Below, piece by piece: positions 19,562 through 29,113 of a DNA stretch of 52,457 nt. This DNA is from an uncultured Eubacteriales bacterium (GTDB lineage Bacteria > Bacillota > Clostridia > Christensenellales > Aristaeellaceae): contig CADAPM010000012.1 in the NCBI GenBank assembly GCA_902789795.1, forward strand, positions 1 through 52,457, given 5' to 3'. The position numbers and the translations under genes were made by a program. The number at the start of each line of letters is the position of its first letter. The stretch's first letter is position 1. The notes under the pieces were generated by a model, which made no database searches, was not told the origin of the DNA, and saw nothing but the letters and a program-made list of their open reading frames with translations.

Positions 19562-20638
19562 TCAGTCTTCCACGCAGACGTGCCAGTTGCCGTAGGGATC
19601 CTTGACGGCGCCGGACTGGATGCCGGTCACGGTGTCGTACAGCTTCTGGCTCACGGGGCCGATGCCGCCGTCGCCGACGGTCATGACGTCGTTCTCATAG
19701 CGCAGCTTGCCCACGGGGGAGATGACGGCGGCGGTGCCGGTGCCGAAGCACTCTTCCAGCGCGCCGGTCTTCTGGGCCTCGATCAGCTCATCCACGGAGA
19801 TGCGGCGCTCCTCCACGTCATAGCCCCAGTCCTTGCACAGGGTGATGACGGAGTTGCGGGTGATGCCGGGCAGGATGCTGCCGGAGAGCATCGGCGTGAC
19901 GATCTTGCCGTTGATCTTGAAGAAGATGTTCATGGCGCCGACTTCTTCGATGTACTTGCGCTCCACGCCGTCCAGCCACAGCACCTGGCTGTAGCCGTCA
20001 TCGTGCGCCTTGACCTGGGCGATCAGGCTGGCCGCGTAGTTGCCGCCGGTCTTGGCAAAGCCGATGCCGCCGCGGACCGCACGGACGTATTCATCCTCGA
20101 TCCAGATGCCCACGGGGTTGAGGCCGCTGGCGTAGTACGCGCCAGAGGGGGACAGGATGACGATGAACAGATAGGTCTTGCTGGGGGCCACGCCCAGGAA
20201 TTCATCCGTCGCGATAATGAAGGGGCGGACGTACAGGGAGGTGCCGGGATCGGTGGGGATCCAGTCCTCGTCCACCTTGACCACGGCCTTGATGGCCTGC
20301 ACGAAGTCCTCCTCCGGGATGCGCGGGATGCAGAGACGGTCGTTGGAGGCGTTGGCGCGCTTGGCGTTCATGTCCGGACGGAACAGGTAGGCCTTGCCAT
20401 CCACGCCCTTGTAGGCCTTCAGGCCCTCGAACATGGTCTGGCCGTAGTGGAAGACCATGGCGCTGGGCTCCAGGGAAATGGGCTGATAGGGGACGATGCG
20501 GGCATCGTGCCAGCCCTGGCCTTCGGTGTAGTTCATCACGAACATGTGGTCGGTAAAGATCTTGCCAAAGCCCAAGGGCTGGCCTTTGGCGGGCTTCTGC
20601 TTGGGGCAAGCAGTGCGCTCGATGCGGATGTTCAGCAT
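19562..20638 (-). CDS. ilvE: Branched-chain amino acid aminotransferase
   Basis: 358 codons, preceded by AAGGAGGAG. Fold-type IV PLP aminotransferase: SLEPSAMVFHYGQTMFEGLK near the front, the catalytic lysine in FAKTGGNYAAS, and the C-terminal ECFGTGTAAVISPVG block. Length is usual for the 350-360 residue IlvE class. It interconverts valine, leucine and isoleucine with their 2-oxoacids, using glutamate/2-oxoglutarate. It is the last gene of the T-box operon, directly after the 2-oxoacid oxidoreductase that would supply or consume the same 2-oxoacids. Confidence 0.95.
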   Translation of the reverse strand: MLNIRIERTACPKQKPAKGQPLGFGKIFTDHMFVMNYTEGQGWHDARIVPYQPISLEPSAMVFHYGQTMFEGLKAYKGVDGKAYLFRPDMNAKRANASNDRLCIPRIPEEDFVQAIKAVVKVDEDWIPTDPGTSLYVRPFIIATDEFLGVAPSKTYLFIVILSPSGAYYASGLNPVGIWIEDEYVRAVRGGIGFAKTGGNYAASLIAQVKAHDDGYSQVLWLDGVERKYIEEVGAMNIFFKINGKIVTPMLSGSILPGITRNSVITLCKDWGYDVEERRISVDELIEAQKTGALEECFGTGTAAVISPVGKLRYENDVMTVGDGGIGPVSQKLYDTVTGIQSGAVKDPYGNWHVCVED

Positions 20639-20652
20639 GATTCAACTCCTCC

Positions 20653-21192
20653 TTATGCCTGATAGTTGACGCCCAGTTCCAGGGCCTCGATATTCTTTTC
20701 CAGCAGGTCGGCGTGGCGCGCGGACACGACCTTCTGCATGGCGGGACGGATCATTTCGTCCGGGATCACGTGGGTATTGGCGATGACGTGGCCCATCAGG
20801 ATCATGTTCGCCAGGGTGTCATAGCCCTTTTCGGTGGAGATGGCGGTGGCAGGGATGGGGTAGACCTTCACGTCATCGCGATTGACCGCGCGCTTGACCA
20901 GGGAGCTGTCTACGAAGATGCAGCCGCCGGCGGGCACCTCGTTCTCGTATTTTTCGAGGGAGGGCAGGTTCATGGCGATCAGGATGTCCGGGCGGCTCAC
21001 GATGGGGGAGCCGACCTGGGTGTCGCTCAGGATGACCGAGCAGTTGGCCGTGCCGCCGCGCATCTCGGGGCCGTAGGAGGGCAGCCAGGATACGTTGCGG
21101 CCCTGCAAGAGGCCCGCGTAGGCGAGGAATTTACCGGCGAACAGGATGCCCTGGCCGCCGAAGCCGGCGATCAAAACCTGTGTCGTGCTCAT
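20653..21192 (-). CDS. 2-oxoacid:ferredoxin oxidoreductase, gamma subunit
   Basis: 179 codons. Typical POR gamma domain: IAGFGGQGILFAGKFLAYA at the front, then WLPSYGPEMRGGTANCSV, the conserved block of 2-oxoacid oxidoreductase gamma subunits. Together with the alpha, beta and ferredoxin-like delta chains just upstream it forms the heterotetrameric enzyme that splits or makes 2-oxoacids with CoA and ferredoxin. It overlaps the beta gene by four bases. Confidence 0.93.
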   Translation of the reverse strand: MSTTQVLIAGFGGQGILFAGKFLAYAGLLQGRNVSWLPSYGPEMRGGTANCSVILSDTQVGSPIVSRPDILIAMNLPSLEKYENEVPAGGCIFVDSSLVKRAVNRDDVKVYPIPATAISTEKGYDTLANMILMGHVIANTHVIPDEMIRPAMQKVVSARHADLLEKNIEALELGVNYQA

Positions 21193-21941
21193 TTTGCCGC
21201 CTCCTCACTGTACTTGTCCTTGTATACGCCCAGGGGATAGTAGGGGATCATGTTCTGCTCCGCCCACTCCAGCGCCGCCTGGGGCGTCTTGCCCCAGTTG
21301 GTGGGGCAGGTGGAGATGACCTCGATCAGGGAGAAGCCCTTGCCCTCGGTCTGGTAGCGGAAGGCCTTTTCGATGGCCTTCTTGGCCTGGCGCACGTTCT
21401 TCACGTTGTTGACGGCGACGCGCTCGATATAGGCCGGGCCGTCCAGGGTGGAAAGCATCTCGCAGATGCGCACGGGATAGCCCACGGTGTTCACGTCGCG
21501 GCCGTAGGGGCTGGTCTGGGTGACCTGGCCGGGCAGGGACGTGGGGGCCATCTGACCGCCGGTCATGCCGTAGATCGCGTTGTTGACGAAGATGATGGTG
21601 ATGTTCTCCCCGCGGGCTGCGGAATGTACGGTCTCCGCAGTGCCGATGGAGGCCAGGTCGCCGTCGCCCTGGTAGGTGAAGATGATCTTGGAGGGATCGG
21701 CCCGCTTGAGGCCGGTGGCGACTGCCGGGGCGCGGCCGTGGGCGGCCTGCACCATGTCGCAGTTGAAGTAGTTGTAGGTGAACACTGAGCAGCCTACGGA
21801 GGCGACGCCGATGGTCTGGCCGGTGATGTCGAGGCTGTCCATGGCCTCCGCCACCAGGCGGTGGATGATGCCGTGGGTGCAGCCGGGGCAGTAGTGCAGC
21901 GGGGCGTCCGTCAGCGCTTTCGGCTTTTCAAATACGATCAT
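21189..21941 (-). CDS. 2-oxoacid:ferredoxin oxidoreductase, beta (TPP) subunit
   Basis: 250 codons. The TPP-binding chain: HYCPGCTHGIIHR (residues 16-28), AAHGRAPAVATG, and the metal/TPP motif GDGDLASIG followed by NNAIYGMTGGQ. Cysteines in the N-terminal CPGC and in VGCSVF fit the cluster-containing beta subunits of this family. It carries the active site for oxidative decarboxylation or, in reverse, reductive carboxylation of acyl-CoA. It overlaps both neighbours by four bases. Confidence 0.94.
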   Translation of the reverse strand: MIVFEKPKALTDAPLHYCPGCTHGIIHRLVAEAMDSLDITGQTIGVASVGCSVFTYNYFNCDMVQAAHGRAPAVATGLKRADPSKIIFTYQGDGDLASIGTAETVHSAARGENITIIFVNNAIYGMTGGQMAPTSLPGQVTQTSPYGRDVNTVGYPVRICEMLSTLDGPAYIERVAVNNVKNVRQAKKAIEKAFRYQTEGKGFSLIEVISTCPTNWGKTPQAALEWAEQNMIPYYPLGVYKDKYSEEAAK

Positions 21942-28798: not shown

Positions 28799-28816
28799 GC
28801 GATCCGCCTGCCTTTC

Positions 28817-29070
28817 AAAAAAATAAACCCGTCTCAACATGATCATTGAGACGGGATGATCCCGCGGTACCACTCAACTTGCACTTTCGTGCCCCTCACG
28901 CTCCATCAAGCGTTTTGCCCTGACGCGGCATTCACGGACCGGACTACTTGTCGCCGTTCGCCCGATCGGCTCGGAAGGGATAAGCCTGAGACGCCGCCTG
29001 TCTGCTCGCACCCACCGCAGACTCTCTGGTAGCCGGCCTGTCTCCGCCGTCTTCGTCACAGCCTTTGCTA
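28817..29070 (-). promoter_or_regulatory. T-box riboswitch 2, in front of acyl-CoA ligase copy 2
   Basis: Minus strand. It shares with T-box 1 the entry AAGGCTGTGACGAAG (29066-29052), AGAGAG, the lower-stem strand CTTCCGAGCC and the antiterminator bulge TGGTACCGCG (28872-28863). The terminator pairs CCCGTCTCAA with TTGAGACGGG and ends in a T-run (28855-28817). The stem I interior differs from T-box 1, so the two leaders may read different tRNAs. The specifier is not resolved by eye. Confidence 0.92.
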
Positions 29071-29084
29071 TGAACTTGTCACGA

Positions 29085-29113
29085 ATGATAGCATGAAGTG
29101 ATTGTTTAGTCAA
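29085..29113 (-). promoter_or_regulatory. Promoter of the T-box / acyl-CoA ligase / VOR operon
   Basis: Minus strand TTGACT (29113-29108), 17-base spacer, TATCAT (29090-29085), about 20 bases before the first conserved T-box bases. It lies within the 48-base gap behind the topoisomerase gene. Confidence 0.85.

Follow-up and report, generated by a model that had tools for sequence, protein, structure and literature searches.

A T-box-led operon that probably makes isoleucine and valine from branched carboxylates in an uncultured Eubacteriales bacterium

Known systems and the proposed pathway

T-box riboswitches (RF00230) usually control genes for amino-acid biosynthesis, transport and aminoacyl-tRNA synthetases, and switch these genes on when the cognate amino acid is scarce. 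Branched volatile fatty acids were reportedly recognized as growth factors of ruminococci by Allison, Bryant and Doetsch in 1962. Here we describe a minus-strand locus, running from 29113 down to 19512 of a 52,457-nucleotide stretch (contig CADAPM010000012.1; the whole stretch is termed the window) of an uncultured Eubacteriales genome, that joins the two subjects: two T-box leaders precede two acyl-CoA ligases (A and B), a P-loop ATPase, a four-subunit 2-oxoacid:ferredoxin oxidoreductase (VOR) and the aminotransferase IlvE. Like other T-boxes, leaders 1 and 2 possess a Stem I with a specifier, a T-box core and a competing terminator. Unlike the usual T-box targets, the genes behind them encode acyl-CoA ligases and a ferredoxin-dependent oxidoreductase, and no description of this combination was found among the matches listed in the open-access literature searched.

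Excerpts of PMC7356843 (citing Allison and co-workers) and PMC2812497 (Methanobrevibacter ruminantium) report that rumen anaerobes carboxylate branched and aryl acids reductively. The pathway proposed here would share this net chemistry, in which Val arises from isobutyrate, Ile from 2-methylbutyrate, Leu from isovalerate and Phe from phenylacetate. The excerpts of these two reports concern physiology, without a dedicated operon, and in work on Prevotella bryantii published in 2020 the reverse reaction is described, in an excerpt, as 'not proven yet' (PMC7709123).

The locus is very probably a biosynthetic operon for Ile and Val by carboxylate salvage, probably switched on by shortage of these two amino acids. 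We infer T-box function, substrates and reaction direction as follows. Uncharged tRNA-Ile or tRNA-Val would bind its own leader and prevent termination. Ligase A, behind the Ile leader, would convert 2-methylbutyrate to 2-methylbutyryl-CoA, and ligase B, behind the Val leader, isobutyrate to isobutyryl-CoA. The ferredoxin-dependent VOR would carboxylate the two acyl-CoAs with CO2 to 3-methyl-2-oxopentanoate and 3-methyl-2-oxobutanoate, which IlvE would transaminate to Ile and Val, so that the operon would replace the missing IlvB/C/D route. A sequence-only reading had proposed such a course from fatty acids to branched amino acids, and the specifiers, the missing de novo genes, the VorB-type alpha subunit and a residue of the ligase pocket lend it support.

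The direction of synthesis is favoured because T-boxes act on uncharged tRNA, AMP-forming ligases spend ATP, the operon ends in an aminotransferase and the de novo genes are missing; in general, AMP-forming ligases and T-box control each indicate synthesis. Run the other way, IlvE and VOR would oxidise branched-chain amino acids to acyl-CoA, with the ligases recycling the acids. The VOR and aminotransferase reactions are reversible by textbook knowledge, and gut degraders of branched-chain amino acids appear in an excerpt of PMC11984666. However, leaders that respond to scarcity and carry Ile and Val specifiers, ligases that use up ATP, and Ile and Val de novo genes missing by cut-off make this catabolic direction very unlikely.

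All parts listed in the sequence-only reading are present, in one direction (Table 1). Its assignment of the oxidoreductase to a branched type agrees with the alpha subunit, which passes the cut-off of the VorB subfamily (NF005507) and none for 2-oxoglutarate or pyruvate, suggesting a branched 2-oxoacid as substrate. VOR/KOR-type enzymes have alpha, beta, gamma and 2x4Fe-4S delta subunits together, as here, where alpha alone reaches a cut-off. The IlvE assignment passes both curated cut-offs (NF009897 and TIGR01123).

The reductive-carboxylation physiology, T-boxes as a kind and the enzyme families are already known. Within the ranked lists of the open-access searches, what is new is the control of such a gene set by T-boxes, the division of Ile and Val between two ligases, the residue that follows this division and the corresponding operons for Leu and Tyr. 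The locus would put a puzzle of rumen nutrition dating from the 1960s on a genetic footing. It offers candidate genes, a regulatory signal and testable substrate predictions, and would explain synthesis of Ile and Val without ilv genes.

Table 1. Features of the ligase operon in the window and of two counterpart operons in the same genome
Feature	Position	Strand	Evidence
Promoter-like site TTGACT-17-TATCAT with TG before the -10, upstream of T-box 1	29085..29113	-	10/12 matches; comparable sites in relatives
T-box leader 1, specifier AUC (Ile)	28844..29068	-	RF00230 78.0 bits, E 1.7e-16; AUC in related leaders
Leader 1 terminator hairpin, which overlaps the T-box match at its 3' end	28828..28855	-	Hairpin and T tract
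Ligase A, 754 residues, HTH + cupin + AMP-forming acyl-CoA ligase, gate residue Gly459	26534..28798	-	Domains; 3ETC 619 bits
T-box leader 2, specifier GUC (Val)	26228..26472	-	RF00230 70.4 bits, E 1.6e-14; GUC/GUA in related leaders
Terminator hairpin of leader 2	26207..26238	-	Hairpin and T tract
Ligase B, 760 residues, HTH + cupin + AMP-forming acyl-CoA ligase, gate residue Ala465	23893..26175	-	Domains; 3ETC 596 bits
P-loop (SIMIBI-like) NTPase, 220 residues	23234..23896	-	PF01656 22.9 bits, cut-off 25.4; invariant P-loop
2x4Fe-4S ferredoxin-like delta subunit, 68 residues	23015..23221	-	PF00037; OGOR/Oor/Por-Kor delta families below cut-off
2-Oxoacid:ferredoxin oxidoreductase alpha, VorB (3-methyl-2-oxobutanoate dehydrogenase) subfamily	21938..23011	-	NF005507 543 bits, cut-off 399
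Oxidoreductase beta (thiamine pyrophosphate) subunit	21189..21941	-	PF02775; best NCBIfam 125 bits, below every cut-off
Oxidoreductase gamma subunit	20653..21192	-	PF01558; NF006323 120 bits, cut-off 235
IlvE, branched-chain aminotransferase	19562..20638	-	NF009897 497 bits, cut-off 307; TIGR01123 415 bits, cut-off 250
Terminator-like hairpin 3' of IlvE	19512..19539	-	Hairpin search
Leu T-box operon	L085:2010-6189 (= G000:C2:197009-201188)		Window's genome
Tyr T-box operon	L084:7554-11802 (G000:C19)		Window's genome

T-box leaders and their specifier codons

Leaders were sought in 183 sources, namely the window, two further stretches of its genome (L084 and L085), 40 stretches around ligases of relatives, 60 loci of a third or fourth ligase and 80 contigs (best 80 of 589). 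Six loci duplicating another locus were removed before counting; the contig set and the relatives' genomes may overlap, and the loci are not all independent. The specifier was taken by a script as the three bases one base ahead of the lower stem of Stem I, with a small bonus for certain stem sequences and none for codons. Ahead of ligases of the A/B family 99 leaders were found, including the two of the window, and 98 of them were read, 65 as Ile and 33 as Val. The script alone read 81, as 54 AUC, 8 GUC and 19 GUA and no other codon, whereas shuffled contexts give on average 8.9, and at most 21, Ile or Val codons for 81 leaders. The adjacent frames of the specifier site give mixtures of Tyr, His, Cys, Arg and Gly, or of Ser and stop codons, and the third base of the Val specifier varies (GUC or GUA) with the amino acid unchanged. 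A further 17 leaders were read by eye, 11 as Ile (L050, L053, L059, L063, L162, L167, L186, L190, L194, L200 and L202) and 6 as Val (L045, L073, L155, L179, L189 and L198); the specifier of the remaining one, L049, was unreadable.

The same rule gives CCG before a gene read by eye as ProRS, UGG before a TrpX-like transporter gene, also read by eye, and CUC (Leu) before the LeuA-like operon described below, all in the window's genome. The leaders of the by-eye ValRS (GUC) and ThrRS (ACC) genes fit with one extra base. Taking the specifier from the Rfam alignment alone was rejected; that reading can be one base off (ACA for L001, CCA for the ThrRS leader), and therefore stem position and relatives were used. 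Thus specifiers of the branched pathway, AUC in leader 1 and GUC in leader 2, were found as the sequence-only reading had anticipated, and unrelated amino acids were not read.

In a covariance-model search both leaders match RF00230 across the full model length. Each contains the core GUGGUACCGCG followed by an overlapping terminator hairpin with a T tract; tRNA-dependent antitermination is the predicted mode of action of both leaders. Nine T-boxes were found in the window's genome, of which two pass the RF00230 gathering score of 93 and seven, including the two of the window, fall under it; the T-boxes under 93 also precede the genes read by eye as ProRS, ValRS and ThrRS. A default-threshold Rfam scan is misleading here, listing no T-box because both leaders score under 93. 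A promoter-like site with 10-12 of 12 matches precedes the second leader in 13 of 17 tandem loci, a count made without a shuffled control. Since the site before T-box 2 is weak (7-9/12) in the window and in the three relatives nearest to it (L064-L066), a single promoter may serve the operon in this genus; ligase B, VOR and IlvE would then possibly depend on both leaders, as in an AND gate.

Ligase types and the gate residue

Macs from Methanosarcina acetivorans (PDB 3ETC) is far closer in sequence to both ligases than any other solved structure, with 619 bits for ligase A (next 355) and 596 bits for ligase B (next 331). Macs is a chain of 580 residues, and the match is confined to the ligase part of A and B. 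According to an excerpt of PMC10455477, Macs prefers 2-methylbutyrate and has Trp259 in its acyl pocket. By our own numbering, the residues equivalent to Trp259 (W469 in ligase B) and Lys256 do not vary among 145 tallied ligases, of which 64 are of Ile type, 31 of Val type and 50 without leader.

For alignment and tree, ligase hits below 400 bits, shorter than 1300 nucleotides or with stop codons were excluded, which left 95 labelled ligases (64 Ile and 31 Val, by-eye labels included) of the 98 with a read leader. One of the 518 alignment columns, the gate column, separates the two types nearly fully: Ile-type ligases have Gly in 63 cases and Ser in one, and Val-type ligases have Ala in 31 of 31. 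The sole exception, the Ser of L063, belongs to the ligase with the longest branch in the tree. All 20 loci that carry both types pair Gly with Ile and Ala with Val. Several other high-scoring columns lie in the gate segment and around the GFGQTE motif, and columns 617, 623 and 751 lie elsewhere. By our own numbering, derived from the YHTGD numbering in the excerpt of PMC10455477 and from alignments of the ligases to 3ETC, the gate column corresponds to Gly255 of Macs, the immediate neighbour of Lys256, with Trp259 four residues further on. Macs thus carries Gly at this position, whereas Val-type ligases carry Ala. In the simplest reading Gly would leave a roomier pocket for 2-methylbutyrate and Ala a smaller one for isobutyrate, so that ligase A would activate the former acid and ligase B the latter. 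Where no leader was detected (50 ligases), the gate column holds Gly in 27, Ala in 19, Met in 3 and Leu in 1, and four second ligases lacking a detected leader, downstream of an Ile-type ligase, have Ala. If the proposal is true, T-box specifiers let ligase substrates be read from sequence, and the Gly/Ala position is a testable specificity switch.

The gate pattern might instead reflect shared ancestry of ligase subfamilies, with both ligases perhaps equally broad. A splitting of the ligases by best hit was noisy, and the tree was used in its place. In this tree the Val-type ligases do not form one clade, and parsimony requires 6 changes of the Ile/Val label and 7 of the gate column. Six independent tree pairs all contrast Gly with Ala at the gate column (6/6), the next columns reaching 5/6; these contrasts are only approximate because the tree is a quick one in which 45 of 143 inner branches have support below 80. 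Such weak forks, together with a related enzyme accepting both acids (MbcS, Km below 10 µM for each in an excerpt of PMC10026030), speak for ancestry. However, the six contrasts agree at this single column among those compared, as do the 20 dual loci, and the column adjoins Lys256 near the pocket Trp259 of the Methanosarcina enzyme. We therefore consider ancestry an unlikely explanation, and keep acid specificity as the preferred one.

MbcS (NF047394) is also the best-scoring NCBIfam family for both ligases, at 421 and 431 bits, under its curated cut-off of 850. The excerpt of PMC10026030 gives for it Km values below 10 µM for 2-methylbutyrate and isobutyrate and above 500 µM for isovalerate, and states that MbcS of Staphylococcus aureus feeds FabH and thereby supplies membrane fatty acids. 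Accordingly, ligases A and B might chiefly make branched primers for membrane fatty acids, VOR and IlvE being a side branch. Both uses may coexist, but the scores under the MbcS cut-off, the Ile and Val T-boxes, the VOR/IlvE neighbourhood and the anti-correlation with IlvC described below favour amino acids, and we regard primer supply as the chief role as very unlikely.

Ligases with the HTH-cupin part also occur on contigs titled Lentisphaerae or Bacteroidota (L195, L206, L217, L220, L223, L224, L226, L227 and L228). At these nine loci no T-box core was found, and the gate residue is G, A or L.

De novo genes, counterpart operons and neighbouring features

The sequence-only reading had named a complete ilv/leu de novo pathway, with these genes induced only in amino-acid breakdown, as an argument against salvage. 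No such pathway was found over the cut-offs for IlvB, IlvC, IlvD and LeuC in the window's genome, an 88% complete draft: IlvC has no match, and the best matches of IlvB and LeuC are 190 bits (cut-off 538) and 112 bits (cut-off 560). We compared 100 genomes, the window's included, scoring IlvC at its cut-off and the ligase at E up to 1e-80 with or without HTH-cupin. IlvC is present in 30 and the ligase in 61; 8 genomes have both, 53 the ligase only, 22 IlvC only and 17 neither (Fisher p 1.1e-5). The p value is 0.010 in the 66 genomes at least 90% complete, and 6.5e-5 for full-length HTH-cupin-ligase hits, which occur in 35 genomes, 2 of them with IlvC; all three values are uncorrected for phylogeny. 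Of the eight genomes of the genus, the window's, G001 and G003 contain the ligase without IlvC, G002, G004 and G005 contain IlvC without a ligase match at the threshold, and G006 and G007 lack both. IlvB- and IlvC-type frames lie close together in G004 and G005, by reading of the frames by eye, and the stretches examined of G002, G004 and G005 yielded no T-box core. In models of cross-feeding and auxotrophy, a genome scored as auxotrophic for Ile, Val or Leu may need branched acids alone.

Besides the quality of the tree and the MbcS match, several points weigh against salvage synthesis. The genome is a draft of 2.59 Mb in 64 contigs, its IlvD match of 578 bits against a cut-off of 618 may represent a divergent IlvD, and of 14 control genomes only 9 score above the LeuC cut-off. 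The genomes with both ligase and IlvC, or with neither, depart from the pattern. Both leaders lie below the gathering score, and 17 of the 98 specifiers were read by eye. For the beta, gamma and delta subunits no NCBIfam family over cut-off was found among the matches listed, only general Pfam domains. Finally, among the 87 loci where over 6 kb of room was available, VorABC lies 3' of the ligase in just 30 (12 of 37 from relatives' genomes, the window included, and 18 of 50 from the contig set), and therefore the oxidoreductase is elsewhere or absent in many genomes.

The sequence-only reading had embraced Val, Leu and Ile. Ile and Val are supported by specifiers and gate; isovalerate and Leu were not, as far as ligases A and B are concerned, and are probably handled by a third ligase. 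A Leu T-box (CUC) in the window's genome precedes a LeuA-like protein and an 835-residue fusion of a xylose-isomerase-like barrel with an acyl-CoA ligase, whose ligase part is about 25% identical to ligases A and B. A separate ligase for Leu would be explained by the poor activity of MbcS on isovalerate. The LeuA-like protein keeps the LeuA_dimer domain and is without the RDGEQ and HxH motifs, having TLRRATE in place of TLRDGEQ and KVVCDDS in place of SVHTHDD of Escherichia coli LeuA; perhaps it is catalytically dead and kept as a leucine sensor. Among 20 leaders of such operons, 11 were read automatically as Leu (7 CUC and 4 CUG) and 4 by eye (L108, L164, L169 and L177), and 5 are cut by locus ends. 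The fusion ligase is matched in 54 of the 100 genomes at E up to 1e-150, and in the relatives G008 and G056 the pair stands beside IlvE, ATPase and Vor genes.

Behind a Tyr T-box (GAA-UAC) of the window's genome stand an aryl-type AMP ligase and then IorA and IorB, each scoring over its cut-off. Leaders of this type read GAA-UAC (Tyr) in 13 of 14 cases and GAA-UUC (Phe) in one, two of the 14 lying 1.3 kb upstream of the ligase; the automatic reader is one base off on them and calls most ACA. The aryl-type ligase occurs in 38 of the 100 genomes, including 8 of 8 of the genus. The operon is a possible route from an aryl acetate to Tyr, the aryl substrate of this ligase, like isovalerate for the third, being predicted from sequence. 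Replacement of de novo Tyr synthesis was dropped as an explanation; a prephenate dehydrogenase (TyrA) domain is present, and therefore the aryl route would be additional. A further T-box, probably Tyr (UAC), lies before a sodium/solute symporter (L086:2672-4222, G000:C5), which passes no NCBIfam cut-off and perhaps imports Tyr or an aryl acid.

The Leu and Tyr operons suggest that the Ile/Val operon belongs to a regulon of carboxylate-to-amino-acid salvage. We lean towards a wider version, in which a T-box regulon in many gut and rumen relatives would make Ile, Val, Leu and Tyr or Phe from waste acids of the community (2-methylbutyrate, isobutyrate, isovalerate and aryl acetates), using a separate Leu ligase with a dead LeuA sensor and an aryl ligase with IorAB, and with the HTH-cupin part as second input. 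In this regulon leader codon and ligase pocket would have switched together about six times, by parsimony on the quick tree, and therefore the RNA codon would report the substrate of the enzyme.

The remaining features concern individual genes. Ligase A is taken to start at the ATG at 28798, as the longer GTG start of the open-reading-frame list falls within leader 1. Its HTH is below the Pfam cut-off, and the HTH-cupin part may have a role in feedback or self-regulation. HTH and cupin, which form the N-terminal 230 residues of both ligases, are separate neighbouring matches in L055, L058, L059, L060 and L062. The P-loop ATPase, with a CbiA domain slightly below cut-off, adjoins the oxidoreductase genes in relatives, and its GHYGSGKTN motif is invariant in 27 aligned sequences (the window's included). 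A predicted model (pLDDT 86) gave moderate fold matches to SRP GTPases and ATPase-type HypB, and no function from them. At locus L070 a T-box, possibly with a Phe specifier, stands directly ahead of the ATPase and Vor genes (core at 6345, flipped strand). Upstream of the ligase operon lies a GyrA/ParC-type gene. Two ARAGORN calls, tRNA-Gln (30052-30143, plus strand) and tRNA-Leu (36498-36589, minus strand), are not shared by the Rfam scan; the former is probably false because it lies within the GyrA/ParC-type gene. A Gut-1 RNA (RF01706, 58.2 bits, gathering score 50) was found at L009:2463-2537, near the ThrRS T-box.

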